Shown here one piece after another: positions 4,529 to 29,473 of a stretch of DNA of 32,180 nt (position 1 is its first letter; the number at the start of each line of letters is the position of its first letter). The stretch lies in NCBI RefSeq assembly GCF_026130045.1, contig NZ_JAIBNX010000074.1:1-32180 (forward strand), read 5' to 3'. The position numbers and the translations under genes are program-made. Source of the DNA: Micromonospora sp. CPCC 205371. Its GTDB lineage: Bacteria; Actinomycetota; Actinomycetes; Mycobacteriales; Micromonosporaceae. Under the pieces are notes generated by a model that saw only the letters and a list, made by a program, of their open reading frames with translations, was not told where the DNA came from and did not search any database.

Positions 4529-4562
4529 ATGTCGTACTCCTGTCGCTCGTGAGGGAGGAGAG

Positions 4563-7371: not shown

Positions 7372-7385
7372 CGCACAGCTCCAAT

Positions 7386-7397
7386 TAATACGTATTA
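7386..7397. promoter_or_regulatory. Predicted LacI operator O1 (leftward arm)
   Basis: TAATACGTATTA is a perfect 12-base palindrome with a central CG, as expected for LacI-family sites. It lies 14 bases before the regulator's GTG and just downstream of the predicted leftward promoter. The same core recurs at 7519-7532 in front of the sialidase gene. Confidence 0.8.
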
Positions 7398-7415
7398 GAA
7401 GATCCAGTGGGAGCG

Positions 7416-7445
7416 ACCATACTCGCGATCTCCGGGAAACGTCAA
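7416..7445 (-). promoter_or_regulatory. Predicted leftward promoter for the lacI-ABC operon
   Basis: On the minus strand TTGACG (7440-7445) is followed after 18 bases by TATGGT (7416-7421). Transcription would start near 7409, so operator O1 sits in the first transcribed bases, where a bound repressor would block escape. The layout mirrors the rightward promoter. Confidence 0.6.
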
Positions 7446-7473
7446 CGGGCCATTTCGGCCGCGTTTCCGGCCG

Positions 7474-7503
7474 TTGACGCACCTGAAGCGGGTCCAGTAC
7501 TGT
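7474..7503 (+). promoter_or_regulatory. Predicted rightward promoter for the sialidase operon
   Basis: TTGACG at 7474-7479 and TACTGT at 7498-7503 are separated by 18 bases. The start would fall near 7510, directly before operator O2. The same -35 hexamer and spacer are used by the opposite promoter. Confidence 0.6.
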
Positions 7504-7518
7504 CCCAAGGAGTTGATC

Positions 7519-7532
7519 TTAATACGTATTAA
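7519..7532. promoter_or_regulatory. Predicted LacI operator O2 (sialidase arm)
   Basis: TTAATACGTATTAA is a perfect 14-base palindrome with a central CG, sharing its 12-base core with O1. The centres are 134 bases apart. It lies between the predicted transcription start and the sialidase ribosome site (AGGAG before ATG 7560). Confidence 0.82.
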
Positions 7533-7559
7533 TAACTCCGCGCCCGATCAGGAGCTCGC

Positions 7560-9653: not shown

Positions 9654-11434
9654 TGGCTCCCGTCGTTCCCCGTCCGGAGGCCGCGGTCACCCTCCGCCCA
9701 CTCTCCGCCACCCGTGTCACCGGTGGTCTGTGGGCGGAGCGGATGGCCGGCAACCGGGCCGCCATCCCGGTCGTGTACGAACGGCTCGTCGCGGCCGGGC
9801 ACATCCGCAACCTGCGTATCGCGGCGGGCGCAGAATCCGGCACCGTCGAGGGAGCCGCGTTCCGGGACTCCGACGTCTACAAGTGGCTGGAGGCGGTCGC
9901 CTGGGACGGCTCCGGCCACCCCGAGGCGCCGGCTTTGACGCGCGTCATCGGCGCCGCCCAGCGCGACGACGGCTATCTGAACTCGGTCATCCAGGTCAGC
10001 GGTGAGCAGCCGTACACGCGGCTGTGGAGCAGTCACGAGCACTACGCCGCCGGGCACCTGTTTCAGGCGGCGGTAGCGGCGGCACGGGCGAGCGGCGACG
10101 GGGGACTCCTGGACGTCGCGACCCGGCTGGCCGACCACCTCGCCGCCACGTTCGGGCCGCACGCCCGCACCGAATTGGACGGGCACCCGCTGGTCGAGAT
10201 GGGCCTGGTCGAGCTGTACCGCCAGACCGGCACACCGTCCTACCTGGAGCTTGCCCGGCACTTCGTCGACACCCGCGGGTACGGGCGGGCCACCAAGCCG
10301 GGCTTCGACCCGTCGCACTACGGCGACCCCGCCCACTACACCGACGCGCAGCCGGTACGCGAGGCCGAAACCCTGTCGGGGCACGCGGTCCGTGCGGTGT
10401 ACTTCGCCGCTGGCGCCACCGACGTAGCCATCGAGACCGGTGACGCGGAATTGCTGGCCGCGGTGCGCCGGCAGTTCGACGCGGTACGCCGGCAGAAGCA
10501 GCACGTCACCGGTGGCGTCGGGTCGCGGTGGGACGGCGAGGCGTTCGGCGAGCCGTACGAGCTGCCGCCCGACCGCGCGTACGCCGAGACGTGCGCCGCG
10601 ATCGGCATGCTCCAGTGGGCGTGGCGACTGCAGCTGGCCACCGGCGAGGCCCAGTACGCCGACCAGGTCGAGCTGCTGCTGTACAACGCGGTGCTTCCCG
10701 CGGTGTCCTTGACCGGCACGGAGTTCTTCTACGTCAACACGCTGCACCGGCGCACCGGCGCCCGCGGCGACCTTCAGCGCTCCCCCGCCAACGGCAGGCG
10801 CCCCTGGTTCAACTGCGCCTGCTGCCCGCCCAACGTCCTGCGCACCCTCGCCAGCCTGCCGGCGTACCTGGCCACGGGCACCGGCGACGGGCTCCAGATA
10901 CACCAGTACGCGGCGAGTTCGGTGCGAGCCGGCGAGTTCGCCGTGGAGGTCGACACCGGGTATCCGTGGGACGGCGGTGTCGCGGTGACCGTGCGGGCCG
11001 CGCCGAGCCGCGAGGTGGAGCTGGCCCTGCGGATACCGGCCTGGGCCGAGGGCGCCACGGTGGACGGCAAGCCGGTGCCGGTGGGCGGGTACGCCCGGCT
11101 GCGGCGCGCGTTCCACCCCGGAGACCGCGTCCTGCTGGACCTACCTCTGCACCCAAGGCTGGTCCTGCCCGACGATCGGGTCGACGCCCTGCGCGGCTGC
11201 GTCGCCGTGGCGCGCGGCCCGCTGGTGTACGCGATCGAGCAGCCCGATCAGCCGCCCGGTGTCATCCTGGAGGACATCCGCTTCGACCCGGCGGCGCCCC
11301 TGGAGGCCGAACACCGGCCGGACCTGCTCGGCGGCGTGACCGTCCTGCGCGCCGCCGGCGTGACGCTCATCCCGTACTTCGCATGGGCCAACCGGGGCCC
11401 ACACGCGATGCGAGTCTGGATACCGAAGGTATAG
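9653..11434 (+). CDS. GH127-family glycoside hydrolase (beta-L-arabinofuranosidase-like)
   Basis: A 593-residue protein of the GH127 (DUF1680) family, known for beta-L-arabinofuranosidases that use a zinc-held cysteine as nucleophile. The metal and catalytic set is intact by comparison with the Bifidobacterium enzyme: Glu296 (GEAF), Glu312 and Cys314 (AETC), Cys390 and Cys391 (NCACCPPN). No signal peptide is seen, so it probably works in the cytosol on imported fragments. ATG 9653 shares a base with the sialidase stop (TGATG). GH127 also includes enzymes acting on other rare pectic sugars, so the exact sugar is open. Confidence 0.92.
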   Translation: MAPVVPRPEAAVTLRPLSATRVTGGLWAERMAGNRAAIPVVYERLVAAGHIRNLRIAAGAESGTVEGAAFRDSDVYKWLEAVAWDGSGHPEAPALTRVIGAAQRDDGYLNSVIQVSGEQPYTRLWSSHEHYAAGHLFQAAVAAARASGDGGLLDVATRLADHLAATFGPHARTELDGHPLVEMGLVELYRQTGTPSYLELARHFVDTRGYGRATKPGFDPSHYGDPAHYTDAQPVREAETLSGHAVRAVYFAAGATDVAIETGDAELLAAVRRQFDAVRRQKQHVTGGVGSRWDGEAFGEPYELPPDRAYAETCAAIGMLQWAWRLQLATGEAQYADQVELLLYNAVLPAVSLTGTEFFYVNTLHRRTGARGDLQRSPANGRRPWFNCACCPPNVLRTLASLPAYLATGTGDGLQIHQYAASSVRAGEFAVEVDTGYPWDGGVAVTVRAAPSREVELALRIPAWAEGATVDGKPVPVGGYARLRRAFHPGDRVLLDLPLHPRLVLPDDRVDALRGCVAVARGPLVYAIEQPDQPPGVILEDIRFDPAAPLEAEHRPDLLGGVTVLRAAGVTLIPYFAWANRGPHAMRVWIPKV

Positions 11435-11437
11435 ATC

Positions 11438-13270
11438 ATGTCTTATGAGGACGCTCAGCGGCGGCTCGCCCGCGGCTGGAACACCTGGGACACGCACAGC
11501 CTGCTGACCCAGGTGCTGCTGCCCGACGGGCTCGCGGTCGCGCTCGGCCTCAAGGAGTACTACCGCGGCAACACGCTGCACCGAGTCCACATCGGACGCC
11601 GCGACCCGGACGCCGAGGACGTCACCCTCGGCCCGCACGCGATCGACGGTTCCTACACCGCCGTCACCGTGCGCTGGCGCGGCGTCGAGATCGTGGTCGA
11701 GACCGCGCACGCCGGCAACGACCTGGTGCTGCTGGCCACCCCGCTGGCGAACCAGGCCCAGCCGGCGACGCTCACCGTCTCGGTTGGCCTGCTGTGGAAC
11801 CGCCCCGGAAGCGTCCGGCGCGACGGGGACGCGATCGCCGCTGAACTGCCCGGCCGCGCCCCGGTCGCCGTGTACGGCACCGCGCCGCGGTACGACGACC
11901 CGTACGTCGACCTGACCGGGCCGTATCTGGCGATGCGGCTCTCCGGGCCGGTCGGCGTGTCCACCGGGCGGCCGCGCGACCTGGCGGAGATCGAGGCGCT
12001 GGTCGCCGCGGCCCGGCTCGCGCCGCCGGAGAGCGCCGACGGGCGGCACCGGGAGCTGGTCCGGGACGCGATCGCCTGGAACACCGTGTATGAGCCGGCG
12101 GGCGAGCGCGTCGTGACCACCGTGAGTCGACTGTGGAACGTCGGCAAGCGCGGCGGGTACGCGCTGTTCTGCTGGGACAACTACTTCAACGCGCTGCTCG
12201 CCGGCGTGTTCAGCGCCGACCTGGCGTACGCCAACGCGGTCGAGATGACCCGGGAGCTGACCCCGGACGGCTTCGTGCCCAACGTGGCACAGGGCACCGG
12301 CCGGCGCACCTACGACGGCTCCCAGCCGCCGGTCGGCGCGATGGCGGCGTGGCAGCTGTACCGCCGCTTCGGCGACCGCTGGTTCCTGGCCGAGGTCTTC
12401 GACGGGCTCCTGACCTGGAACCGCTGGTGGTGGCGGGTACGCCGGCACGGCGACCTGCTGTGCCTCGGCTCGACCGCGTTCACCCCGCAGTGGCCGTCCC
12501 CTCAGGACATCCCCCGCATCGACCAGCACTTCGGCGCCACCTGCGAGAGCGGCTGCGACGACCATCCCGTGTTCGCGGACATCCCGTACGACCCCTCGGT
12601 CGGCCTGCTGATGGCCCATGACGTCGGCCTCAACAGCGAGTACGTGGTGGACTGCGAGGCGCTGGCGGAGATCGCGGGCGTACTGGGAAGGGACGCCGAG
12701 CGGGACGAGCTCCGTGAGCGCGGCGCGGCCGTGGCGGACGCCGTCGAGCGCCGCCTCTGGTCGGAGGAGACCGCCTCGTACCGCAGCCGCCGCCTCGACA
12801 CCGGCGAGTTCACATCGGACATCTCGCCGATGAGCTTCTACCCGTTGCTGGCCGGGCTCGGGGCGGGCGGGCGCGCCCGCCTCATGGTGGAGCGGTACCT
12901 GCGCGACGAGACGTACTTCGGCGGCCAGTGGGCGATACCGTCCACGCCGCGCACGGACGTCGAGTCCGCCTCACGCAGCTACTACTGGCGCGGCCGGGTC
13001 TGGCCACCGATGAACCTCCTGGTGTACCTCGGGCTGCGCCGGCTCGGCCTGGCGGACGAGCGGCGGTGGCTGGCCGAGCGCAGTGGCGAGCTGGCGATGA
13101 AGGAGTGGGGCGAGGCGCGCCACGTACACGAGAACTACTCCGCCAACACGGGCGAGGGCTGCGACAAGGCCAACAGCGAACCGTTCCACTCGTGGGGCGC
13201 CCTGCTCAGCCTGATCCCCCTGATCGAAAACGGTCTGGAACCGTACTTCACCGAGGAAGGAACGCGATGA
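11438..13270 (+). CDS. GH63/MGH1-like glycoside hydrolase
   Basis: A 610-residue predicted (alpha/alpha)6-barrel enzyme of the GH63/mannosylglycerate-hydrolase-like group. Hallmarks are FCWDNYFNALLAG with candidate acid Asp247, the YYWRGRVWPPMNLLVYLGL segment, and HENYSANTGEG with candidate base Glu565. The N-terminal ~200 residues form a beta-rich domain common in this group. No signal peptide is visible, so a cytosolic role on imported sugars is likely. GAAGG lies 8 bases before the ATG, only 3 bases after the GH127 stop. Family activities range over alpha-glucosides and mannosyl compounds; catalytic assignments are by motif only. Confidence 0.85.
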   Translation: MSYEDAQRRLARGWNTWDTHSLLTQVLLPDGLAVALGLKEYYRGNTLHRVHIGRRDPDAEDVTLGPHAIDGSYTAVTVRWRGVEIVVETAHAGNDLVLLATPLANQAQPATLTVSVGLLWNRPGSVRRDGDAIAAELPGRAPVAVYGTAPRYDDPYVDLTGPYLAMRLSGPVGVSTGRPRDLAEIEALVAAARLAPPESADGRHRELVRDAIAWNTVYEPAGERVVTTVSRLWNVGKRGGYALFCWDNYFNALLAGVFSADLAYANAVEMTRELTPDGFVPNVAQGTGRRTYDGSQPPVGAMAAWQLYRRFGDRWFLAEVFDGLLTWNRWWWRVRRHGDLLCLGSTAFTPQWPSPQDIPRIDQHFGATCESGCDDHPVFADIPYDPSVGLLMAHDVGLNSEYVVDCEALAEIAGVLGRDAERDELRERGAAVADAVERRLWSEETASYRSRRLDTGEFTSDISPMSFYPLLAGLGAGGRARLMVERYLRDETYFGGQWAIPSTPRTDVESASRSYYWRGRVWPPMNLLVYLGLRRLGLADERRWLAERSGELAMKEWGEARHVHENYSANTGEGCDKANSEPFHSWGALLSLIPLIENGLEPYFTEEGTR

Positions 13271-14868
13271 ACCGGGCGGATGTGCTCGTCGTGGGTGGCG
13301 GCCTGGGCGGAGTCGCGGCGGCCCTGGCGGCGTTGCGGCGCGGCCGGACGGTGCTGCTCACCGAGGAGACCGACTGGCTGGGCGGTCAGCTCACCACCCA
13401 GGCGGTGCCGCCCGACGAGCACCCGTGGATCGAGCGCTTCGGCTGCACGGCGAGCTACCGGGCGCTGCGCGACGGGGTCCGCGACTACTACCGGCGCTGG
13501 TATCCACTCAGCGAACGGGCCCGGTCGGCGCGGTACCTCAACCCCGGCGAGGGCACGGTCAGCCCGCTGTGCCACGAGCCGCGCGTCGCCGCGGCCGTGA
13601 TCGATGCCATGCTGGCGCCGTGGACGGCCGCGGGGCGGCTGCGGGTCCTCACGCGGTACCGGCCGGTCGGCGCCGAGGTGGACGGCGACCGGGTGCGCGC
13701 GGTGCTCGTCGAAGGGCCGGATGGCGACCGGGTCGAGCTGGCCGCGCCGTACGTGCTGGACGCCACCGAACTGGGCGACCTGCTCGCGCTCACCGGCACC
13801 GAGCACGTCACCGGCTTCGAGTCCCGCGCCGAGACCGGGGAGCCGCACGCCCCCACCGAGGCCCAGCCGGACAACATGCAGGCGTTCTCGTGGTGTTTCG
13901 CCCTGGAGCACCGGGCCGGCGAGGACCACACCATCGACAAGCCGGCCGAGTACGACTTCTGGAGCGGGTTCAGCCCCGAGTTCTGGGGCGGAAAGCTGGT
14001 ATCGCTGACCGCACCCGATCCGCGCACGCTGCGCCGGTACCCGCGCACCTTCGTACCGAACCCGGTGGCCGACAGCGATGTCGTCGCCGACCAGAGTCTC
14101 AGCGCCGGCGACAGCGACCTGTGGGTCTTCCGGCGCATCGTGTCTCGCCGGACCCTCTCCCCCGGGCTGGTCGACAGCGACGTCACGCTGGTCAACTGGC
14201 CGATGATCGACTACTTCCTCGGGCCGCTGATTGGTGTCAGCGACGAGGAGAAGGCAAAGCACCTGGCGTCGTCCCGGCAGCTCAGCCTCAGCATGCTCTA
14301 CTGGCTACAGACCGAGGCGCCCCGGCCCGACGGCGGCACCGGCTGGCCCGGACTGCGCCTGCGCGGCGACGTGCTGGGCACCGCCGACGGCTTCGCCAAG
14401 GCGCCGTACATCCGCGAGTCACGCCGGGTCCGCGCCGAGTACACGGTGGTCGAGCAGGACCTCTCCCTGGAGGTGCGTGGCGAGTACGGCTCTGTCGCCT
14501 ACCCGGACAGCGTGGGCGTCGGCGCGTACCGGATCGACCTGCATCCGTCGACCGGCATGGACACGTACATCGACGTCGGCGCGACGCCGTACCACCTGCC
14601 GCTGGGGGCGCTGCTGCCGGTGCGGATGGAGAACCTGCTGCCGGCCGGGAAGAACATCGGCACCACCCACATCACCAACGGCTGCTACCGCATGCACCCC
14701 ACGGAGTGGAACATCGGCGAGGTGGCCGGTGCGCTGGCCGCGCACTGCCTCGACCGTGGCCTTGCTCCCCGGCAGGTCCGAGCGCAGGAGAGCCGGCTGG
14801 CGGACTTCCGCGCCGGCCTCGTCGCCGACGGTGTCGAGGTGGCGTGGCCCCGGCTGAGCGGTTACTAG
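13267..14868 (+). CDS. FAD-dependent oxidoreductase (FAD_oxidored family)
   Basis: A 533-residue flavoprotein. The Rossmann FAD motif VLVVGGGLGGVAAALAALRR starts at residue 6 and is followed by the acidic end TEETDWLGGQLTTQ, typical of the FAD_oxidored (PF12831-like) family. The C-terminal NIGTTHITNGCYRMHPTEWN region is the second FAD-binding segment. The substrate is unknown; members often sit beside polysaccharide-degrading genes and may oxidise a sugar or sugar acid. ATG overlaps the preceding stop as ATGA with AAGGA upstream, making it the last gene of the four-gene rightward operon. It ends 14 bases before the convergent operon's last gene. Confidence 0.9.
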   Translation: MNRADVLVVGGGLGGVAAALAALRRGRTVLLTEETDWLGGQLTTQAVPPDEHPWIERFGCTASYRALRDGVRDYYRRWYPLSERARSARYLNPGEGTVSPLCHEPRVAAAVIDAMLAPWTAAGRLRVLTRYRPVGAEVDGDRVRAVLVEGPDGDRVELAAPYVLDATELGDLLALTGTEHVTGFESRAETGEPHAPTEAQPDNMQAFSWCFALEHRAGEDHTIDKPAEYDFWSGFSPEFWGGKLVSLTAPDPRTLRRYPRTFVPNPVADSDVVADQSLSAGDSDLWVFRRIVSRRTLSPGLVDSDVTLVNWPMIDYFLGPLIGVSDEEKAKHLASSRQLSLSMLYWLQTEAPRPDGGTGWPGLRLRGDVLGTADGFAKAPYIRESRRVRAEYTVVEQDLSLEVRGEYGSVAYPDSVGVGAYRIDLHPSTGMDTYIDVGATPYHLPLGALLPVRMENLLPAGKNIGTTHITNGCYRMHPTEWNIGEVAGALAAHCLDRGLAPRQVRAQESRLADFRAGLVADGVEVAWPRLSGY

Positions 14869-17881: not shown

Positions 17882-18868
17882 CTAGAGGCCCATGTCTTGG
17901 CGCAGGGCCGCGACCATCTTGACGTTGCGGACATACTCGTCCGCGGACGTCGCCTCGCTCGCCTGGTTCAGCCCGTGCGGCCAGAAGTGGGCGCCGTCGG
18001 CGTAGAGCACCGCGGCCGAGTTGTTGTCGAGCGTGCGGAGCTGGTTGATCGCGTTGGCACCAGTCCACCGGCCGCCGGAGATCCGGGAGGCCCAGTTGCC
18101 GTGGGTGCCCACGCCGAGGGTGTGCGCGATCTCGTGCATGGCGGTCGCCTGCTGCATAGTCGACTTGGCACCGAAGCGGATGGTGCCGTTGATGTTGCCG
18201 TCGGCCGTCGGCACGCTGGGCTCGTAGTGGATCGACAGCGCCTTGCTGACGCTGATGTAGCAGTTGTACACCGTCAGGGCCAGGTTCATGGCCTCGGTGA
18301 TCCGGTTGTACGAGTCGAGCTGGTCGGCGGTCGGCGCCGAGGCCCGGTGCAGCGTGTAGGTGATGCCGCCGGAGGCCGGGCAGCCGGGACCGCCGGTCGT
18401 GCTGTTCCACCGCTGGTTGGCGCCGCCGTTGCATGTCCACAGGATGATCGCCGTGCCGTTGGCGGTGCCGCCGCCGCTGGCGTCGAGGCAGAGCCCCGAC
18501 AGCGCGCTGGTGATCGTGCCGTTGCTGTTGACGTTCCACACCTGGTTGGTGCCGCCCGTGCAGTCCCATATGACCACCTGGGTGCCGGCCGTCGTGCCGT
18601 TGTTGTAGGCGTCCAGGCACTTCGTGCCCGCGTACGCCCGCAGCTGCCGGCCGGAGGTGTGGTTCCACTGCTGGTTGCTTCCGCCGTTGCAGTCGTACAG
18701 CTTCACCTGCGTGCCGTTGGTCTTGTTCGCGCTCGGCACGTCGACGCAGCGTCCGGACGGGGCGCCACGGATGGCGCCAACGGCGGCCGAGGCGGGGGCG
18801 GCGACGGCGAGCAGGGAACACGCGAGGGCGCTAGCGGTGGCAGCAGCGAGGAGGCGGAGGTTCGGCAT
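17882..18868 (-). CDS. Secreted ricin-lectin (CBM13-like) protein with metzincin-type zinc motif
   Basis: A 328-residue exported protein. A Sec signal ends near ASAA (about residue 29). A beta-trefoil lectin domain at about 30-160 holds three QxW repeats (66-68, 109-111, 152-154), each after a CLD/CVD-type strand. The C-terminal domain at about 168-328 carries HEIAHTLGVGTH (His245, Glu246, His249, His256), the HExxHxxGxxH zinc site of metzincin proteases. It is thus likely a glycan-targeted secreted metalloprotein. The ATG at 18866-18868 is chosen because GAGGAG lies 7 bases before it; a 17-residue longer frame has no such site. Confidence 0.88.
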   Translation of the reverse strand: MPNLRLLAAATASALACSLLAVAAPASAAVGAIRGAPSGRCVDVPSANKTNGTQVKLYDCNGGSNQQWNHTSGRQLRAYAGTKCLDAYNNGTTAGTQVVIWDCTGGTNQVWNVNSNGTITSALSGLCLDASGGGTANGTAIILWTCNGGANQRWNSTTGGPGCPASGGITYTLHRASAPTADQLDSYNRITEAMNLALTVYNCYISVSKALSIHYEPSVPTADGNINGTIRFGAKSTMQQATAMHEIAHTLGVGTHGNWASRISGGRWTGANAINQLRTLDNNSAAVLYADGAHFWPHGLNQASEATSADEYVRNVKMVAALRQDMGL

Positions 18869-18890
18869 GCTCTGACTCCTCATGGCCAGG

Positions 18891-18905
18891 GGGAATCGCT
18901 TTCCC
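18891..18905. promoter_or_regulatory. Possible operator upstream of the lectin-metalloprotein gene
   Basis: GGGAATCGCTTTCCC has 5-base inverted arms around a 5-base centre. It lies 22 bases before the lectin-metalloprotein ATG. Sites of the GGAAAGCG-TTTCC style are common targets of LacI-family regulators of secreted carbohydrate-active genes. The arms are short, so chance is possible. Confidence 0.35.
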
Positions 18906-18927
18906 GCGAACGTACACATTCAGATCT

Positions 18928-19394
18928 TTGGATGCAAGCGGCGTGCCGGCCACGCGACAGCGGTCGTTCCTGGCCGGCCTGCGCGTCGCCAGGCACCACA
19001 GCGGGCCGGCATCCCCGCCCGGCGCCCCGCTACCCACCATCGGCGGCAACGTCGTCGTCACGACCGGCGAAGGACCACTCACCCTGCTGTCCTGGGTGGA
19101 CGGTCGGGAACTCGTCGGAGACACCGCGGTCGAGCAACAACTGATCGGCTCCACGCTCGCCCTCGTACACCGTGCGCTGGCAACCGCGGACGTGCCCGAT
19201 ACGGAACGCTAGGCACGCTGACCGAGGCGGAGGTCCACCGTGGCCTGGCCCCGCTGCTCCAATTCCGATGGGCCGTACATGCCGACTACGTCGCTCGAAG
19301 GATCGCCAACCACGACCTGACTGGCATAACCGGCCCGCAGGACAACGAGGTTGGCCTCGAAGACGCCCACCGGCATCTGCGGGCCGGACGATGA
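18928..19394 (+). pseudogene. Degraded aminoglycoside-phosphotransferase-like gene
   Basis: Two pieces of one kinase-fold protein remain in different frames. Bases 18928-19212 encode a mid-N-terminal piece (VVVTTGEGPLTLLSWVDGRE, then LIGSTLALVHRAL). Bases ~19216-19394 encode a C-terminal piece (LLQFRWAVHADYVARRIANH and a DNEVGLEDA ending). The nucleotide-binding N-terminus and the whole catalytic segment (HGD...N and DFD-type motifs) are missing, and the frame changes between pieces. It cannot make an active phosphotransferase. The assignment rests on recognising the family's C-terminal pattern. Confidence 0.65.
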
Positions 19395-19555
19395 CTTTGA
19401 AGGCCTACCAAATAGTGCCGACGGAAGATTCCCAGGCGTGAGTAGCAATGAGGTGTTCATTCACTCCTCATGCGACTCAGCCACCGTAGACTTGTGATTC
19501 TCTAATCAACGACCTCGCTGCAAGATCGTATGCGAGCAGAACGGCGGGACGTGAC
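19395..19555. other. Low-GC intergenic stretch before the two-TM gene
   Basis: These 161 bases are more AT-rich than the surroundings. A TAGACT at 19487-19492 could be a -10 element for the next gene, but no -35 at proper spacing was found. No other structure was recognised. Confidence 0.3.
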
Positions 19556-20407
19556 ATGAGCATTGAACGCCTCCTGGACAAGCCGGCGCTCCGAAATACG
19601 CGCACGCTTGCGGCCACAGCAAATTCCGCCACCTTCTTCGTACTCGCCAGCATCAGCCTTTCGACCCTTGCGACGACAGCATTCACCGCCGTAATGAGGC
19701 GCCCAATCCATCTGCAAGCAGGAATTGCGATAGCAATGACCGCCGCAGGGCTTCTGCTAATATCGGCACATCACAGAGTTCGCGAGCAGAATCCAACCCA
19801 ATACACAATACTGGCACTTGAGGGAACACTAGAGGTCAGGCGGGAAAACGGCTACAGGCGCTACACGTACGAGCGGCTCCAAAGGATCGAGGCAGCACGA
19901 AACGATCTGCGCCTCATCGAGCTACGAGAACACTGGACGGGAAAGAGCGCCACAGATCCTCAGGTAGAGCTGTGCAAGCCGCGGGGCGCTCGCCTACTTG
20001 ACGGGAAGGACCCCGAAACAGACAGTCGGGTCTACCGGTGGGTTTATCCGGGGCGACCGATGAGGCGCGGAGAACAACTCGAAGTCATGGTGAGGCAAAC
20101 CCATGCCGACGACCTAGGCGTCCAACGACCATATTTCCGTCAGGGCGGCGGCAGGTACAAGACAAAGAGCGTGACTGTCAGGGTCCGTTTTCCGAAGGAA
20201 GAAGATCCAGGTGATGTCACGGGTGCCGCCTGGAACACGGGCAACGCATTACGACAGACGCAGATCATGACGGAGTTCCCGCCGCGAAGACACGACACCG
20301 ACGATGCTTCAATGGTGGAATACAGCATCGAGGTAACTTCACCGGCCCGGCACCACTCGTACGGACTCCGGTGGACCTGGCCCCGCTCGGAGGCGGAAAC
20401 GAAGTAA
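19556..20407 (+). CDS. Hypothetical two-transmembrane protein, low GC
   Basis: A 283-residue protein I do not recognise. Two hydrophobic segments at about 24-46 and 53-70 form a hairpin anchor. A charged, probably cytoplasmic domain follows: an Arg/Glu-rich helical stretch (YTYERLQRIEAARNDLRLIE) and a beta-rich C-terminus with YRWVYPGRPMRRGEQLEVMV, SVTVRVRFPKEE and a final YGLRWTW. The C-terminal pattern recalls beta-sandwich accessory domains of some actinobacterial regulators, a weak resemblance. The gene is clearly lower in GC than its neighbours, uses ATA and other rare codons, and has a TTA leucine codon at 20249-20251 (residue 232). These are signs of recent transfer and possible bldA-tRNA control. 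It is followed by its own terminator. Confidence 0.72.
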   Translation: MSIERLLDKPALRNTRTLAATANSATFFVLASISLSTLATTAFTAVMRRPIHLQAGIAIAMTAAGLLLISAHHRVREQNPTQYTILALEGTLEVRRENGYRRYTYERLQRIEAARNDLRLIELREHWTGKSATDPQVELCKPRGARLLDGKDPETDSRVYRWVYPGRPMRRGEQLEVMVRQTHADDLGVQRPYFRQGGGRYKTKSVTVRVRFPKEEDPGDVTGAAWNTGNALRQTQIMTEFPPRRHDTDDASMVEYSIEVTSPARHHSYGLRWTWPRSEAETK

Positions 20408-20630: not shown

Positions 20631-21167
20631 TCAGTCGCCGGCGATCGCGGGTGGGAGGTCGTCGAACCAGGCCAGCATCGCGCGCTCATAGGCGATCCCG
20701 AACCTCAGCGTCGCTATCGCGTACGGCTCCGCCTCGGCCGCCTCGGGTGGCAGCGCCGCGTCGATCTGCTCGTACGTGGCCAGGCGGTCGGCGTGCACCT
20801 GCCGGTGCTTGGCCACGATCGCGGCCAGCCGCTCGGCGGGCACGTGCCGGCCGAACATCACGGTCAGCAGCAAGGGAAACCGGATCGTCTCCGGATCGGG
20901 TTCGCGCGAGACCCATGCGGCGAACGCCGCCCGGCCGGCGTCGGTGATGGCGTACGGTCGCCGGTCTCGCCGGCCGCGTTCCTGTGCCTCGACGAGCCCG
21001 TCGGCCGCCATGGCGCTTAGCTCCCGGTACACCTGGCTCTGCGTGAGCGACCAGAAGTCGCCGATGCGGGACTGGGCCGTGGCGACCAGGTCCCAGCCGG
21101 ACATGGGTCCCTCGTGCAGGAAGCCGAGCAGCGAGGCGGCGGTCGCGTTCAGCGGGCGAGCGGTCAT
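20631..21167 (-). CDS. PadR-family transcriptional regulator
   Basis: A 178-residue PadR protein of the longer subtype. The N-terminal winged helix is visible (AASLLGFLHEGPMSGWDLV, then WSLTQSQVYRELSAMAADGL and the wing RRDRRPYAITDAGRAAFAAW). The C-terminal part is a coiled dimerisation domain (FGRHVPAERLAAIVAKHRQ onward). The ATG at 21165-21167 is chosen because AAGGAGG lies 6 bases upstream. It diverges from the DUF2306-like membrane gene, with a TGACA-N8-TGTCA site between them, suggesting it represses both itself and that gene in response to a small hydrophobic ligand. Confidence 0.93.
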   Translation of the reverse strand: MTARPLNATAASLLGFLHEGPMSGWDLVATAQSRIGDFWSLTQSQVYRELSAMAADGLVEAQERGRRDRRPYAITDAGRAAFAAWVSREPDPETIRFPLLLTVMFGRHVPAERLAAIVAKHRQVHADRLATYEQIDAALPPEAAEAEPYAIATLRFGIAYERAMLAWFDDLPPAIAGD

Positions 21168-21179
21168 CCAATCCCTCCT

Positions 21180-21197
21180 TGACATGTCATTGTGTCA
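21180..21197. promoter_or_regulatory. Predicted PadR operator overlapping a -35 box
   Basis: TGACA-N8-TGTCA is an inverted repeat with the 8-base spacing common for PadR sites. Its left part is also the 10-base palindrome TGACATGTCA. It overlaps TTGACA (21179-21184), a perfect -35 hexamer for rightward transcription toward the membrane gene, though the -10 is weak. Confidence 0.5.
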
Positions 21198-21251
21198 GGT
21201 CGCACGATGGAGTGACGATATTCCACTTAGATAGGTCACGGGGGCGTCTCC

Positions 21252-21740
21252 ATGGACTGGTTGCATCCCGCGCTCGTCGGCGTCCACGCCACCGCCGGCG
21301 GCCTCGGCCTACTGCTCGCCGGCCCGGTGATGCTGGCTCCCAAGCGGCGGGGCCGGCACCCGCTGCTGGGCCGGGCGTACGCGGTCTGCGCCGGCGTGCT
21401 GTGCCTGACCGCGTTCGGTCTCGTCGCCTACGACCCGGCGGGCCTGGTGGGGCTGGCCGTGCTCGGCATCTTCACGGTGGTGTGGGTGGCTGGCGGCGTG
21501 TGGATGGCCCGGCGCCGGCCCGTGCTGCACGGCAGCCGCTACGCCTGGCGTGTCTGGCACCTGAGCCTCATGGGCAGCAGCGTGATCGCCTTCGTCACGG
21601 CCTTTCTCGTCCAGATGGCCGAGGGTCATCTGGTCGCCTGGATCGCACCGACCGCCGTCGGAACGCTGCTCATCACGGTCGCCAACATTCGTGAGCTGGC
21701 GCGCCAAGCGGCACGGCCGTCGGTTACCCACACGTCCTGA
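21252..21740 (+). CDS. DUF2306-like four-helix membrane protein
   Basis: A 162-residue integral membrane protein with four hydrophobic segments (about 8-28, 42-62, 65-85 and 105-145 as a longer pair region). The GRHPLLGRAYAVCAGVL segment after the first helix, and the WHLSLMGSSVIAFVTAF segment, match the DUF2306 pattern in which conserved histidines follow membrane spans. Function is unknown; it is probably the target of the divergent PadR regulator. The start ATG has only a weak G-rich ribosome site. Confidence 0.8.
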   Translation: MDWLHPALVGVHATAGGLGLLLAGPVMLAPKRRGRHPLLGRAYAVCAGVLCLTAFGLVAYDPAGLVGLAVLGIFTVVWVAGGVWMARRRPVLHGSRYAWRVWHLSLMGSSVIAFVTAFLVQMAEGHLVAWIAPTAVGTLLITVANIRELARQAARPSVTHTS

Positions 21741-21860
21741 TGACTCGTGCCGTGCTGTGGCGGCGGACACGAAGGCGACATACGGGCGTTACGCGCCGTT
21801 CAGCTGCGCTAGCGTGGACGGCTGGCCGCGCGCCCGGTGGCGTGCCCAGAGAGGTGCGCT

Positions 21861-24800
21861 GTGACCCTGACGCCCGTCCTGCCGACTGCTGCTGCCGTCT
21901 TCCGGTCTGATACGGCACCGGCCAGCCGGACCCTTCTGGACATCCTGGACGGCACGGTCGCGCGGCATCCGGACGCTCCGGCGATCGACGACGGCACGCG
22001 GGTGTACGACTATCGCCGGCTGGCCGCGGAGGTCGACGCGGTGCGGCAGAAGCTCGCCGCGTCCGGCATCGGCGTGGGCGACCGGGTCGGCATCCGGATC
22101 TCGTCCGGCACCGCCGACCTGTACGTCGCGATCCTCGCGGTCCTCGCCGTCGGAGCCGCCTACGTGCCGGTGGAGGCCGATGACCCCGACGAGCGGGCGG
22201 AGCTGGTGTTCGCGGAGGCGAACGTATGCGCGGTACTCGGCGACGGCCTGGCGATGACGTCGCTGGCCCCGCCGGGGGCGTCGGCGCAGGGAAGGCCGGG
22301 GCCCGACGACGACGCCTGGATCATCTTCACCTCCGGCTCGACCGGCAAGCCGAAGGGCGTCGCGGTCAGCCACGCGTCGGCGGCGGCGTTCGTGGACGCC
22401 GAGGCGCGGCTGTTCCTGACCGCGGAGCCGATCGGGCCGGACGACCGCGTACTGGCCGGGCTGTCGGTGGCGTTCGACGCGTCGTGCGAGGAGATGTGGC
22501 TGGCCTGGCGGCACGGCGCGTGCCTGGTGCCGGCCGCGCGTTCCCTGGTACGCAGCGGCGTCGACCTCGGCCCATGGCTGGCGGCCCGGGGCATCACCGT
22601 GGTGTCGACGGTGCCGACGCTCGCCGCGCTGTGGCCCGCGGAGGCGCTCGACGGCGTACGTCTGCTGATCTTCGGTGGCGAGGCGTGCCCGCCCGAGCTC
22701 GCCGAACGCTTGGCCGTGCCGGGCCGCGAGGTCTGGAACACGTACGGGCCGACCGAGGCGACCGTCGTGGCCTGCGCCGCCCGGCTCACCGGCGAGGGGC
22801 CGGTACGGATCGGGCTCCCGCTGGCTGGATGGCGGCTCGCCGTCGTCGACGCGCTCGGCGAGCCCGTGCCGATGGGTGGCACCGGTGAGCTGGTGATCGG
22901 CGGTGTGGGCCTGGCCCGCTACCTCGACGCGGCCAAGGACGCGGAGCGGTTCGCGCCGCTGCCCTCGCTCGGCTGGGACCGTGCCTACCGCAGCGGTGAC
23001 ATGGTGCGCGCCGAGCCGGAGGGCCTCATCTTCATCGGCCGCAACGACGAGCAGATCAAGCTCGGCGGGCGGCGGATCGAGCTGGGCGAGGTCGACGCCG
23101 CGCTCCAGGCACTGCCCGACGTGGCCGGCGCGGCCGCGGCGGTACGTCGCACCAAGGCCGGCAACCAGGTCCTGGTCGGATACGTGACCCTGCTCGACGG
23201 CGCGGAGTTCGACCCGGACGCGGCGGCGGCACGGCTGCGCGAGCACCTGCCCGCCGCTCTCGTGCCGCTGCTCGCCGTCGTCGACACGCTGCCGACCCGC
23301 ACGTCCGGAAAGGTGGACCGGGCCGCGCTGCCCTGGCCGCTGCCCACAGTAGACACGCACGGGGCGGCGCTGTCCGAGACCGAGGCGTGGCTCGCCGAGG
23401 GCTGGGCGGAGATCCTCGGCGTACGGGTGACCGAGGCGGGGGCAGACTTCTTTCGCAACGGAGGCAGCAGCCTCGCCGCGGCGCAGCTGATCGCCTGGAT
23501 TCGCACCCGCCACCCCCAGGTGTCGGTCGGCGACCTCTACCAGCACCCCCGGCTGGCCGACCTCGCGGCGGTACTGGACGGGCTCGGCGCGAGCGCCACG
23601 ACCAGGCGCGAGGTCGCTCCCACGCCACGGCTCGCGGGCGCCATCCAGACGCTGCTCATGGTGCCGCTGCTGACGATCGTCGGGCTGCGCTGGCTGACCG
23701 TCCTGGCCCTGGCCGCCAAGCTCCTTGGCGCGCCGTGGGCGCCGGCCGTCTCGTGGTGGTGGGTCGCGCTGGGCTGGTTCCTGCTGTTCAGCCCGGTGGG
23801 ACGGATCGGCATCGCGGCGGGCGGGGCGCGGCTGCTGCTGCGCGGCGTGGGGCCGGGGCGCTATCCCCGCGGCGGCCCGGTCCACTTGCGACTGTGGACC
23901 GCGGAGAGGCTGGCCGACCTGAGCGGCGCGACCAGCGTCGCGGGCGCGTCGTGGATGACCCGGTACGCGCGGGCGCTCGGAGCCGAGATCGGCCGCGACG
24001 TCGACCTGCACTCCGCACCGCCGGTCACCGGCCTGCTGAAGGTGGGGCGGGGCGCGGCAGTGGAGCCTGAGGTCGACCTGAGCGGGTACTGGGTCGACGG
24101 GGATGTCGTCCACATCGGACAGGTCCGGATCGGTGCGGGTGCGCGGATCGGCGCCCGCAGCACGCTGCTGCCGGGTGTGCGGATCGGTAAGGGCGCGCAG
24201 GTCGGTGCCGGCTCGACGGCCCGCGGGACGGTGCCGGCGGGCCAGCGGTGGGTCGGTGCACCGGCCACCCGGGCCGGCAAGAGCGGCCACACCTGGCCGG
24301 TGGAGCGGCCGGGCCGGTCCCGGCGTTGGGGCACGGCATACGGCGCGACCTCGCTGCTGCTCGGCATGCTGCCGGCCGTGGCCGCCCTGCCCGGGATCGC
24401 CGTCCTGGCGCGCGCGGCCGCCGGCGCCGGCACGCTCGGCGGCGCGGTCACCGCCGCGCTGCTGGCCATCCCGGCCGCCGCGCTGATGTACGTCGCCGCC
24501 TACGCGGCGCTGGTGCTGGTCGCCGTCCGCTCGCTGAGCGTCGGACTGCGCGAGGGCTACCACCCGGTGCACAGCCGGGTCGCGTGGCAGGTGTGGGCGA
24601 CCGAGCGCCTGATGGGCATGGCGCGGGTCGGGCTCTTCCCGCTGTACGCCAGCGTGCTGACGCCGGCGTGGCTGCGGCTGCTCGGCGCGAAGGTGGGCCG
24701 GGGCGTGGAGGCGTCCACCGTCCTCGCGCTGCCGAAGATGACCACCGTCGCCGACGGCGCGTTCCTGGCCGACGACACGATGGTCGCCACGTACGAGCTG

Positions 24801-25715
24801 CGGAACGGCTGGCTGCACGTGGCACCCACCCGGATCGGCAAGCAGGCGTTCCTCGGTAACTCCGGGATGGCCGCGCCGGGACACTCCGTGCCGAAGCGGG
24901 GCCTGGTCGGGGTGCTGTCCTCCGCGCCGCGCAAGGCCAAGAAGGGCTCGTCCTGGCTGGGGATGCCGCCCATGCCGCTGCGCCGGTCGCCGGAGGAGGC
25001 CGACAGCAGGCGCACCTATGCCCCGCCGGCCCGGCTGAAGGCGGCTCGCGCCCTCGTCGAGCTGTTCCGCCTGGTACCGGTGGCGTGCGGCGGCGCGCTG
25101 GCGGTACTCGTGCTGGCCGCGCTCGCCGCGGTCTGGAACGCGCTGGGGCCGGTGGCCGCCGGGGCGCTGTCCGGTGTCGTGCTGCTGGGCGCCGGCGTAC
25201 TGGCCGCCGCGACCGCCACCGCGATGAAGTGGCTCCTGGTGGGGCGTTTCCGGGCCGGTGACCGTCCACTGTGGGACTCGTTCGTGTGGCGCAATGAGCT
25301 CGCCGACACCTTCGTCGAGGTCCTCGCGGTGCCGTGGCTGGTACCCGCCGCGAGCGGCACTCCCGTGCTCGCCGGGTGGTTGCGTACGATGGGCGCGAAG
25401 ATCGGCCGCGGGGTGTGGCTGGAGACGTACTGGCTGCCGGAGTTCGACCTCGTGCGCCTCGGCGACGGGGCCACGGTCAACCGGGGCTGCGTCGTGCAGA
25501 CACACCTGTTCCATGATCGGATCATGAGTATGGACGAGGTGACGTTGGCGGCGGGCGCCACGCTGGGCCCGCACGGGATCGTGCTGCCCGGCGCGACGAT
25601 AGGCGCCCGGACCACGGTGGGGCCCGGCTCGCTGGTGACCCGTGGTGACACGGTGCCGGCCGACTCGCGCTGGCTCGGCAACCCGATCGCGGCATGGCCG
25701 AACCACCGGGAATGA
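21861..25715 (+). CDS. pls: Pls/PosA-family NRPS (predicted epsilon-poly-lysine synthetase type)
   Basis: A 1284-residue membrane NRPS close in size to Streptomyces albulus Pls (about 1319). The adenylation domain has IIFTSGSTGKPKGV, NTYGPTEATV, YRSGDMV, GRNDEQIKLGGRRIELGEV and TRTSGKVDRAALP. A carrier domain follows with phosphopantetheine serine 537 (GGSSLAAAQL). Then come three pairs of membrane helices alternating with three left-handed-helix/acyltransferase-like domains (for example VRIGAGARIGARSTLLPGVR and the GATIGARTTVGPGSLVTRG repeat near the end). There is no thioesterase. Hand-aligned to GrsA, the pocket reads D206 A207 E210 S249 I270 G272 T294 V302 V303 K484, close to the lysine code DAESIGSVCK. 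GTG 21861 is preferred over an upstream in-frame GTG because GAGAGG precedes it by 6 bases. Confidence 0.92.
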   Translation: MTLTPVLPTAAAVFRSDTAPASRTLLDILDGTVARHPDAPAIDDGTRVYDYRRLAAEVDAVRQKLAASGIGVGDRVGIRISSGTADLYVAILAVLAVGAAYVPVEADDPDERAELVFAEANVCAVLGDGLAMTSLAPPGASAQGRPGPDDDAWIIFTSGSTGKPKGVAVSHASAAAFVDAEARLFLTAEPIGPDDRVLAGLSVAFDASCEEMWLAWRHGACLVPAARSLVRSGVDLGPWLAARGITVVSTVPTLAALWPAEALDGVRLLIFGGEACPPELAERLAVPGREVWNTYGPTEATVVACAARLTGEGPVRIGLPLAGWRLAVVDALGEPVPMGGTGELVIGGVGLARYLDAAKDAERFAPLPSLGWDRAYRSGDMVRAEPEGLIFIGRNDEQIKLGGRRIELGEVDAALQALPDVAGAAAAVRRTKAGNQVLVGYVTLLDGAEFDPDAAAARLREHLPAALVPLLAVVDTLPTRTSGKVDRAALPWPLPTVDTHGAALSETEAWLAEGWAEILGVRVTEAGADFFRNGGSSLAAAQLIAWIRTRHPQVSVGDLYQHPRLADLAAVLDGLGASATTRREVAPTPRLAGAIQTLLMVPLLTIVGLRWLTVLALAAKLLGAPWAPAVSWWWVALGWFLLFSPVGRIGIAAGGARLLLRGVGPGRYPRGGPVHLRLWTAERLADLSGATSVAGASWMTRYARALGAEIGRDVDLHSAPPVTGLLKVGRGAAVEPEVDLSGYWVDGDVVHIGQVRIGAGARIGARSTLLPGVRIGKGAQVGAGSTARGTVPAGQRWVGAPATRAGKSGHTWPVERPGRSRRWGTAYGATSLLLGMLPAVAALPGIAVLARAAAGAGTLGGAVTAALLAIPAAALMYVAAYAALVLVAVRSLSVGLREGYHPVHSRVAWQVWATERLMGMARVGLFPLYASVLTPAWLRLLGAKVGRGVEASTVLALPKMTTVADGAFLADDTMVATYELRNGWLHVAPTRIGKQAFLGNSGMAAPGHSVPKRGLVGVLSSAPRKAKKGSSWLGMPPMPLRRSPEEADSRRTYAPPARLKAARALVELFRLVPVACGGALAVLVLAALAAVWNALGPVAAGALSGVVLLGAGVLAAATATAMKWLLVGRFRAGDRPLWDSFVWRNELADTFVEVLAVPWLVPAASGTPVLAGWLRTMGAKIGRGVWLETYWLPEFDLVRLGDGATVNRGCVVQTHLFHDRIMSMDEVTLAAGATLGPHGIVLPGATIGARTTVGPGSLVTRGDTVPADSRWLGNPIAAWPNHRE

Positions 25716-27037
25716 CGGGCACCGCCCAGCCCGGTGCTGAGCATTCCGGAGACCCGTACCTTCCCGAGCACGGCAACGGCGGCTACCGGACCCGCCACTA
25801 CGACCTCGACCTGGACTACCGGATCGCCACCAACCGGCTCACCGGCAGGGCGACCATCACGGCGGTGGCCACGCATGGGCTGTCGCGGTTCAGCCTCGAT
25901 CTGGCCGGGTTGCAGGTCAAGCAGGTGCTCGTCGACGGCACGGCCGCGAAGTTCAACCACGCGGGCCACAAGCTGCACGTGCGGCCGGCCAGCCCGGTAC
26001 CCGTCGACGCGGTGTTCCAGGTCGAGGTCCGGTATTCCGGGCGGCCCCGCCCGATCGCCGGGCGGTGGGGCGACCTCGGGTGGGACGAGCTGACCGACGG
26101 CGTGCTCGTCGCCAGCCAGCCGGTGGGCGCGCCGTCCTGGTTTCCGTGCAACGACCACCCGGCCGACAAGGCGAGCTATCGCATCGCGGTGGCGGCGGCG
26201 ACGCCGTACACGGTCATCGCTACCGGAAGGCTGACGGAGCGCCGGCGCGGCGCGAGCACGACGGCCTGGGTCTACGACCTTCCCGAGCCGACGCCCACCT
26301 ACCTGGTCAGCGTCCAGATAGGACGGTACGAGCGGATGGACCTCTCCACTCGCTGGCCGGTGCAGCGGGCCGCGGTGCCGGGGAGGCTGCGGCGGCAGTT
26401 CGCACACGACTTCGGGCGCCAGGGCGAGATGATGCGGGCGATGCAACGGTTTTTCGGGCCGTACCCGTTCGGTGAGTACGCCGTCGTCGTGACCGACGAC
26501 GACCTGGACGATCCGATCGAGGCACAGGGCATGTCCATCTTCGGCGCGGGCCACGTCGACGGGCGGCGGACCCACGAGCGGCTGGTGGCGCACGAGCTGG
26601 CTCACCAGTGGTTCGGCAACAGCCTGACGGTGGCCGACTGGCGGCACATCTGGCTCAACGAAGGGTTCGCCACCTACGCGGAGTGGCTCTGGTCGGAAGC
26701 GTCGGGTGGCGGGTCCGTCAACGCGCTCGCCCGGCTGTGGCACGCGCGGCTCGTGGTGCGCCCGATGGATCTGCGGGTCGCCGATCCGGGCGTGGATCGG
26801 ATGTTCGACGAGCGGCTCTACAAGCGCGGCGCGCTGACACTGCACGCGTTGCGTCGCGAGGTGGGCGACGAGCGGTTCTTCCGGCTCCTGCACGCCTGGG
26901 TCGCCGAGAACCACCACGGCACCGTGACCACGCGGGCCTTCATCGCGCTCGCGGAACGGCACGCTGGCCGGCCGCTGACGAACCTGTTCGACGCCTGGCT
27001 CTACGCCGCCCCACTGCCGGTTCTGCCGCTGACTTGA
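25712..27037 (+). CDS. M1-family zinc metallopeptidase coupled to the Pls-type NRPS
   Basis: A 441-residue M1 (gluzincin) peptidase, shorter than standard aminopeptidase N because it ends soon after the catalytic domain. The zinc site is HELAHQWFGN (His294, Glu295, His298) with third ligand Glu317 in WLNEGFATYAEW. The usual GAMEN exopeptidase loop is replaced by IEAQGMSIFG. No signal peptide is evident. The ATG at 25712 overlaps the NRPS stop as ATGA; an alternative ATG at 25694 would overlap by 22 bases. Epsilon-poly-lysine producers are known to have zinc aminopeptidase-type degrading enzymes, so trimming or self-protection against the polymer is a reasonable inference. Confidence 0.92.
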   Translation: MTGTAQPGAEHSGDPYLPEHGNGGYRTRHYDLDLDYRIATNRLTGRATITAVATHGLSRFSLDLAGLQVKQVLVDGTAAKFNHAGHKLHVRPASPVPVDAVFQVEVRYSGRPRPIAGRWGDLGWDELTDGVLVASQPVGAPSWFPCNDHPADKASYRIAVAAATPYTVIATGRLTERRRGASTTAWVYDLPEPTPTYLVSVQIGRYERMDLSTRWPVQRAAVPGRLRRQFAHDFGRQGEMMRAMQRFFGPYPFGEYAVVVTDDDLDDPIEAQGMSIFGAGHVDGRRTHERLVAHELAHQWFGNSLTVADWRHIWLNEGFATYAEWLWSEASGGGSVNALARLWHARLVVRPMDLRVADPGVDRMFDERLYKRGALTLHALRREVGDERFFRLLHAWVAENHHGTVTTRAFIALAERHAGRPLTNLFDAWLYAAPLPVLPLT

Positions 27038-27047
27038 GCGGCACGGT

Positions 27048-29435
27048 TCACCGTGCTGGATCGGGCGGCATCGCCAGGTGCACCGGCTCCATCTGGTGGT
27101 CTATCCCGATGAACCCGCGTCCGGGTGGCGCGCTGAACAGCTGATCGGCCCCCAGCGTGAACCCAAGCTCGCGCCCGACGGCCACACTGGACGGCGCGAG
27201 CAAGATCCGGGTGCCGCTGGTGACAGCCTCGACGACGGGCTGCCGCAGGGACGGTCGCTGTCCATTCAGGATGGGCGAGGCGTCCCCGCACAGCACGAGC
27301 GCGGCCCGGCCAAGCCCGGCGGGCTCGGCGATCTGGTGCGGCAGCGTGGGGAGCTCGGTCGACGACTCCACCACCGCGTTGATGGACAGCCGGTCGACGT
27401 CGTCGACGATCATCGCGTACGGGCGCTCCCCGAACTGCGCGGCGACGGCGCGCAGGTCGCGGTCCTCGAAGCCGCTGCCAACCAGTACCCGGACCAGCCT
27501 GTCGTGTGGCAGCAGGCCGGGCAGCGCCGAGCGGGCCGGTGCCAGCGCGAGTACGGCCACGCCGCACCGGTTGAGCGCGTGTGCGATCGTCGCGGCGGCG
27601 GTGCTGCGGCCACTGCCGGCTGGGCCGGAGACCAGCAACACGTGTGGACCCGCGCCGAACAGGTCGAGCCTGAACGGGGCCACACGCGGTCCCCCGACGC
27701 CGACCGCGACACCGCGGCCGGGCACCGCCGCCGGCAGGTCGTCCAGCCGCACGACGGTTGGCAGCGCAGGAAATGCGCGCGGGCGGGGCTCGCCGGCCGT
27801 GAGCCAACCGGCCTGCCGCACCGATATCGCACCGCTGGTGGTGCTCGCGGCGCGGTCGGCTCCCGTGTCTCGCATCGACGCGAGCGACCGGGCGACGCCT
27901 TCGGCCCGGTCTCGGCTCAGCCAGTCAGCGCGACCCGAGACCGTGTGCGCGTCGCTGCCTCGGGTGACACGCACGCGGCCGGCATCCAGCTCGCATAGCA
28001 CCCCGCAGTCGCGCAGGCCGTCGCGGTCGGCGCAGATCGCGTAGATCCCCAGCGACGGCCCGTCCCGGAGAAGCTCGGGCACACCGGGCAGGTCCCGCAG
28101 CTCCGAGGCGCCGTCGAGGAGTACCACGATCTCCGGCAGGTGCGACCCGGCGGGCCTGCCCCGCCGCGCGGTGAGAAGCTCGCCCAGCTCGGCCGCCCGG
28201 TCCGCCCGGCTCTGAGGTGTGTTGCCCACCCAGCAGGTGGCCGCGCCGTCAGCGGCGTCCACGGCCATATGCGGCAGCCAGGTGGTCCAGGCCAACTCGT
28301 CATCGTCCGAGGCCGTCAGCACGACAATTCGAAGGTCGGCTGGACTTCGCAGCGTCGCCAACTGCACCAGCATCCACCGGACGGTCGGGGCGACATCGCC
28401 TGACTGACCAATCAGTCCGACCGCACCGGCCTCGCGAAGGTCCACCGTGGCCGGTACGCCCCGCACCACCGGCGGCGCGAATCCATCCCACGGTTCCCCA
28501 CGCAACGCGAGGCTCGCCAGGCTCTCCATCGAGCCCACCCGCAGCGACAACCCGTGCGGCGCGGTCGCGTCCCGCGACCACAGCCGGTCGCTGGCGCCGG
28601 TCGCGGCGAAGATGATGTCGATCTCGTCCGGCGCCAGCTCGCGACGCGCCTGCTCCTCGCGCGCCACATGGCGCGCGATCTCCTCGGCGGGCGCGTCGCG
28701 GGCCGCTTGGAAATCCCGGGGTGGCCGCGGCCACGCCCCGCGCCCGCACAGATACGTGGGGCCCGCTTCCACCGGGCCGAGCAGTGTCAGCAGCGCCAGT
28801 ACTGGAGTCTTGGCGGCCGCCGTCGGCAAGACCACCTCGGCCGGCGTCACGGTCGGGGCCGCCGCGACCCGGCGTTCGAACACCAGCCGCCCGTCGTCAC
28901 CGCGGACCGCGTCCAGCGGCACCTCGGGGCGGCCAACCAGCTCAAGGCGGCTCCCACCGACCTCCACCAGCGCCCCGGGTACCAGGTGGACGGGGGTGTC
29001 GGTCAGCAGGTCCGTGGCGCGGACCGTACCGTCGATGCCGACCTCCAGCATCAGGTGCCGCTCGGCGACCTCGGGGTCGGACATCCTCGGCAGGCAGCCT
29101 TCCTCGCGCCCCACGATGTGACGGCCGGCTGGCAGCCAGGCCACCGCACCCATGTCGGGGCCCGCGACGGCTCGCAACGCCGCTACCGCGTCATCGGGCA
29201 GCCGCGTCGCGGTTCCGGGCTCGCCCACGCGGATGACACAGCCCTGAACCAGCGGGCTGTCGGCAACGGTCTTGCCCGGATCGAGGCGCGCGTCGCCGAC
29301 GAAGCAGGGCTGATCACCGACCGGTACCGGCAGCGCGTCGAGCACCCGAGCGACCGTCGCACCGGGATCCACCTCGATGATCAGATCGGCGCGGGTCACC
29401 GGCGCCGGATGCCACAAGCTACAACGCAGCTCCAC
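27048..29435 (-). CDS. FtsK/SpoIIIE (EssC/EccC)-like FHA protein lacking the central motor
   Basis: A 795-residue protein. Residues ~1-90 match the EssC-type N-terminus, and ~100-175 form an FHA domain (HIVGREEGC, then AERHLMLEV). A helical stretch is followed by a degenerate P-loop domain around VGLIGQSGDVAPTVRWMLVQ. A last domain has an intact P-loop GPAGSGRST at 604-612 and Walker B-like YAMIVDDVD. In relatives of about 1400 residues, an active motor domain (GTTGSGKSE-type) lies between these two; here it is absent. The two N-terminal membrane helices are also not evident. GTG 29435 gives the family-like start (VELRCSLW); ATG 29456 is the alternative. It faces the M1 gene across 10 bases. 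Confidence 0.75.
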   Translation of the reverse strand: MELRCSLWHPAPVTRADLIIEVDPGATVARVLDALPVPVGDQPCFVGDARLDPGKTVADSPLVQGCVIRVGEPGTATRLPDDAVAALRAVAGPDMGAVAWLPAGRHIVGREEGCLPRMSDPEVAERHLMLEVGIDGTVRATDLLTDTPVHLVPGALVEVGGSRLELVGRPEVPLDAVRGDDGRLVFERRVAAAPTVTPAEVVLPTAAAKTPVLALLTLLGPVEAGPTYLCGRGAWPRPPRDFQAARDAPAEEIARHVAREEQARRELAPDEIDIIFAATGASDRLWSRDATAPHGLSLRVGSMESLASLALRGEPWDGFAPPVVRGVPATVDLREAGAVGLIGQSGDVAPTVRWMLVQLATLRSPADLRIVVLTASDDDELAWTTWLPHMAVDAADGAATCWVGNTPQSRADRAAELGELLTARRGRPAGSHLPEIVVLLDGASELRDLPGVPELLRDGPSLGIYAICADRDGLRDCGVLCELDAGRVRVTRGSDAHTVSGRADWLSRDRAEGVARSLASMRDTGADRAASTTSGAISVRQAGWLTAGEPRPRAFPALPTVVRLDDLPAAVPGRGVAVGVGGPRVAPFRLDLFGAGPHVLLVSGPAGSGRSTAAATIAHALNRCGVAVLALAPARSALPGLLPHDRLVRVLVGSGFEDRDLRAVAAQFGERPYAMIVDDVDRLSINAVVESSTELPTLPHQIAEPAGLGRAALVLCGDASPILNGQRPSLRQPVVEAVTSGTRILLAPSSVAVGRELGFTLGADQLFSAPPGRGFIGIDHQMEPVHLAMPPDPAR

Positions 29436-29473
29436 GAAAGAGATGATATGGAGCATTCATCCGGAATAGTCCG

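Follow-up and report, generated by a model that had tools for sequence, protein, structure and literature searches.

The gene at 21861-25715 (+) of the window, by which we mean the whole stretch of 32,180 nucleotides of Micromonospora sp. CPCC 205371 analyzed here, very probably encodes a Pls that makes epsilon-poly-L-lysine, with the adjoining M1 peptidase acting on the polymer. Epsilon-poly-lysine is a polymer used as a food preservative. The original prediction of a Pls-type enzyme and a poly-lysine product is supported by a substrate code identical to that of Streptomyces albulus Pls at all ten positions, by an A domain sharing 333 of 485 residues with that enzyme, and by an M1 gene downstream of pls, which the prediction had not mentioned.

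For the substrate, the polymerisation and the role of the peptidase, we infer the following scheme from characterised relatives. The A domain would activate L-lysine with ATP, E210 holding the amine of the lysine side chain and A207 giving room to the long chain, and the lysyl group would then be loaded onto the carrier domain. Lysines would next be linked one after another through the epsilon-amine by the three membrane-tethered C-like domains, giving a cationic isopeptide with no thioesterase involved. Trimming or degradation of the polymer would fall to the M1 peptidase, probably to protect the cell itself or to control chain length.

Reading frame, family and domain layout

The plus-strand frame runs uninterrupted between GTG 21837 and the stop at 25715, and the in-frame GTG 21861, with AGAGAGG directly upstream, gives as the pls start a protein of 1284 aa. 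Searched against NCBIfam, this protein matched TIGR02353 (the Pls/PosA family) with 733 bits (cut-off 423), the match covering residues 595-1276 and profile positions 2-695 of 695. Besides one strong TIGR02353 place, the window's genome contains five weak places (20.9-25.9 bits). The Pfam matches were AMP-binding, AMP-binding_C, PP-binding and two hexapeptide families, the latter at residues about 754-786 within the first soluble stretch. At E <= 0.001, Pfam showed neither a condensation nor a thioesterase family in the protein.

The adenylation domain, which carries the code DAESIGTVVK, occupies 21891-23348 (+, residues 11-496) according to its alignment to 7WEW_A (E 1.5e-203), and the carrier (T) domain lies at 23388-23573 (+, residues 510-571; PF00550, 40 bits), where an FFRNGGSSL motif holds the candidate phosphopantetheine serine. 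The C-terminal NRPS_term_dom at 23643-25688 (+), placed by TIGR02353 and hydropathy, consists of three pairs of TM helices with a soluble stretch after each pair. Its six membrane helices, predicted by hydropathy only, correspond to six peaks in three pairs (about 598-653, 832-887 and 1071-1116), and the three soluble stretches, taken to be the C-like domains, are deduced from the spacing of the pairs and from the family. The family, the intact frame and this Pls layout, in which A and T are joined to three pairs of TM helices and condensation and thioesterase domains are lacking, are direct observations, and the A-T-(TM2-C-like)x3 architecture lacking a thioesterase that had been proposed for the gene is borne out by TIGR02353, Pfam and the six hydropathy peaks.

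Just upstream of pls, a gene at 21252-21740 (+) encodes a 162-aa product that has no family match (NCBIfam/Pfam) and is hydrophobic by eye, and a PadR-family regulator at 20631-21185 (-) is divergent from it. A scan of 21150-27300 for promoters and terminators found 0 of each, where shuffles expect 0.2 and 0.7; the promoter scan used a sigma-70 pattern, which says little for a GC-rich organism. Farther away, 1190-14868 looks like a glycan-use region, with an ABC transporter ATPase, a family 5 solute-binding protein, a LacI regulator, an FAD oxidoreductase, a BNR-repeat protein with a golvesin-type C-terminus and an MGH1-like glycoside hydrolase. A protein with a ricin-B-type lectin domain is encoded at 17882-18919 (-), next to a region in which GC is lower (0.65, 18001-20000).

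The adenylation pocket and the lysine code

The code was read from motif anchors in the numbering of GrsA, with anchor positions that we take to be those of GrsA. The residues obtained were D206, A207, E210, S249, I270, G272, T294, V302, V303 and K484, and the resulting DAESIGTVVK is exactly the code that had been read by hand. The best solved-structure match of the A domain was 7WEW, an epsilon-poly-L-lysine synthase (E 1.5e-203), which appears in a table of PMC11253843 as S. albulus Pls solved with Lys-AMP bound. Alignment of the window's A domain with this structure gave 333 identical residues in 485 aligned, supporting the Pls reading. In the pocket, which is of the lysine type, identity is 10/10 for the code and 32/34 for the shell; the differing shell positions are F271 and A300, and at each of them 79 of 80 close relatives side with the window.

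This identity of the pocket, itself a direct observation, supports lysine specificity beyond the strength first claimed for it. The code had been called near-lysine on comparison with DAESIGSVCK, which we take to be a lysine code; the lysine type holds, and the word near does not, since the match to S. albulus Pls is complete. S. albulus Pls itself is a better yardstick than DAESIGSVCK. Neither DAESIGTVVK nor DAESIGSVCK occurred as a string in a search of literature text.

As described in PMC10522769, code position 2 tends to track the length of the substrate, with Phe for Dap/Dab, Met for ornithine and Ala for lysine; the code of PosA is DMEHNGTVSK and that of the poly-beta-lysine enzyme DGESISVVNK. 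Because PosA, the poly-beta-lysine enzyme and the Dap/Dab enzymes differ in code, epsilon-poly-L-lysine is likelier than a related polymer as the predicted product.

The M1 neighbour and conservation among relatives

The M1 zinc metallopeptidase gene, PldII-like by position, lies at 25694-27037 (+; PF01433 and PF17900). Its frame from ATG 25694 shares its first 22 bases with pls, up to and including the pls stop, and an alternative in-frame start at ATG 25712 would give an ATGA overlap with the same stop; this overlap is observed directly and places pls in a peptidase operon, as in other Pls systems. The zinc motif HEXXH-18-E is present: HELAH occupies 300-304, and 18 residues separate it from Glu323. 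Among solved structures, the protein is closest to a putative zinc metalloprotease (E 1.2e-57). No hydrophobic stretch was found in the first 60 residues, and the location of the protein may therefore differ from that of S. albulus PldII, which we take to be an M1 enzyme. In S. albulus, pldII is translationally coupled to pls, and PldII is described as the main epsilon-PL-degrading enzyme, sited outside the cell membrane (PMC9223678). Downstream, 27048-29456 (-) encodes a product of 802 aa with a weak likeness to EccC, the type VII secretion ATPase (84 bits, cut-off 509), and also a weak Yop-YscD_cpl match.

Relatives were collected by scanning genome contigs with six peptides and keeping the best 80 of at least 592; since two of the six, DASCEEMW (three code residues) and EVWNTYGP (one), overlap the code, this set is biased. 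Among these best 80 of at least 592, whose Pls is 60.9-76.0% identical to that of the window, the code DAESIGTVVK was found in 80/80. An M1 homologue (49.2-68.6% identical) stands just downstream of pls likewise in 80/80, its match beginning between 24 bases before and 592 bases after the pls stop.

As a less biased sample, 296 genomes of the phylum were searched with TIGR02353 at E <= 1e-50, and 15 of them, the window's included, hold 20 places. Apart from the window's own place there are 19, and 13 of these are 57-66% identical to the window and share both its code and an M1 gene next to pls. The remaining six (L100-L105) are remote, with segments 25-33% identical to the window; two of their codes were partly readable, both beginning DI, and four were unreadable, and no M1 match was found in their short flanks (a total of 3 kb in four cases and 1.5 kb in L100 and in L104). 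The code and the M1 neighbour are thus joined in every close homologue examined, 80/80 (best of at least 592) and 13/13, in two sets that may share species and so overlap. Because the two features co-occur, the pls-M1 pair is usable as a marker for the lysine-type members of the Pls/PosA family.

In the full-length tree (81 rows), the window grouped with nine Micromonosporaceae with support 99, and the A-domain tree agrees on this placement (98/87). L028 (Asanoa, Micromonosporaceae) sits elsewhere in the full-length tree, the Pseudonocardiaceae are scattered over several of its groups and 23 of its 78 inner branches are not resolved, all of which counts against simple inheritance. In the A-domain tree 7WEW has a branch of 0.92 where the median is 0.1, which would suit an S. 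albulus A domain that evolves fast or belongs to another lineage; because of this length its place is unsure, and the orthology of the window to 7WEW is not cleanly settled. One row titled as a Rhodococcus MAG (L046) bears a cyanobacterial family label in the trees, which looks wrong because the row groups with Rhodococcus.

Counting as near-invariant any column in which at least 78 of the 80 relatives agree on the residue, we obtained 431 columns, and the window keeps 427 of them, departing at E105, R363, A787 and H1008. Residue 1008, in the second soluble stretch, is His in the window and Arg in 80/80 close relatives. The pls protein looks intact and under constraint, and reduced activity is possible because of these four departures, H1008 among them.

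Alternative readings and comparison with known systems

It is very improbable that the lysine-like code misleads and that the enzyme builds a cationic homopolymer from another diamino acid (ornithine, Dab, Dap or beta-lysine). The Pls/PosA family includes such enzymes, and code position 2 alone is not decisive for the substrate, because PosA M218A gained lysine activity and still preferred ornithine (kcat/KM 474 vs 27.6; PMC10522769), Ala at this position being insufficient for a lysine preference. The whole code of the window, however, equals that of Pls at 10/10 and is unlike those of PosA and the poly-beta-lysine enzyme, and a peptidase operon of the Pls kind is a context unlike that of the Dap/Dab synthetases, as far as PMC8117764 describes them. 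In addition, no aminomutase and no Dab- or Dap-forming enzyme was found among 19 scanned ORFs of the window (19 searched with Pfam, 10 with NCBIfam). The complete code and the neighbouring genes are the grounds on which readings with other substrates were rejected.

A decayed or silent relic of pls that yields no polymer is very improbable, although H1008 and the three further departures from near-invariant columns would fit it, and although PMC8117764 reports no detectable polymer for native C. variabile. Against it, the frame is intact, 427 of the 431 near-invariant columns are retained, and so are the serine motif of the T domain and the zinc motif of the M1 protein.

With a lysine-polymerising Pls and its peptidase as the preferred reading, the known list of epsilon-poly-lysine producers gains a further probable entry near Micromonosporaceae; a Pls/PldII-like gene pair is of a kind already described in actinobacteria (PMC8117764). 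In the loci compared, the pocket stays the same across ten actinobacterial families, and the tree is partly family-wise. A speculative and rather doubtful extension is that the Pls-M1 pair is old and largely inherited, with a physiological role rather than a primarily antibiotic one, and that the S. albulus enzyme is a fast-evolving offshoot. If so, the pair would both make and recycle its product, a polymer serving the envelope or the response to stress.

Among known systems, PosA, the delta-poly-L-ornithine synthetase of Acinetobacter baumannii (8G95-8G98), resembles the window in having an A domain, a carrier, a membrane-bound terminal domain and a pocket with Asp and Glu, and differs in its code, DMEHNGTVSK, and in its single-gene operon (PMC10522769). 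Corynebacterium variabile, compared by description, belongs to another actinobacterial group and, like the window, has an operon of Pls and peptidase; the Corynebacterium Pls, 51% identical to Streptomyces Pls and encoded beside the peptidase gene, made epsilon-PL in S. coelicolor, and a C. glutamicum recombinant gave no detectable polymer (PMC8117764). S. albulus Pls (7WEW), compared over the A domain, differs from the window in 2 of 34 shell residues and in its long, separate branch, and is like it in 333 of 485 A-domain residues and all ten code residues and, according to the literature, in its layout and in the coupling of a peptidase gene, pldII, to pls (PMC8117764, PMC9223678).
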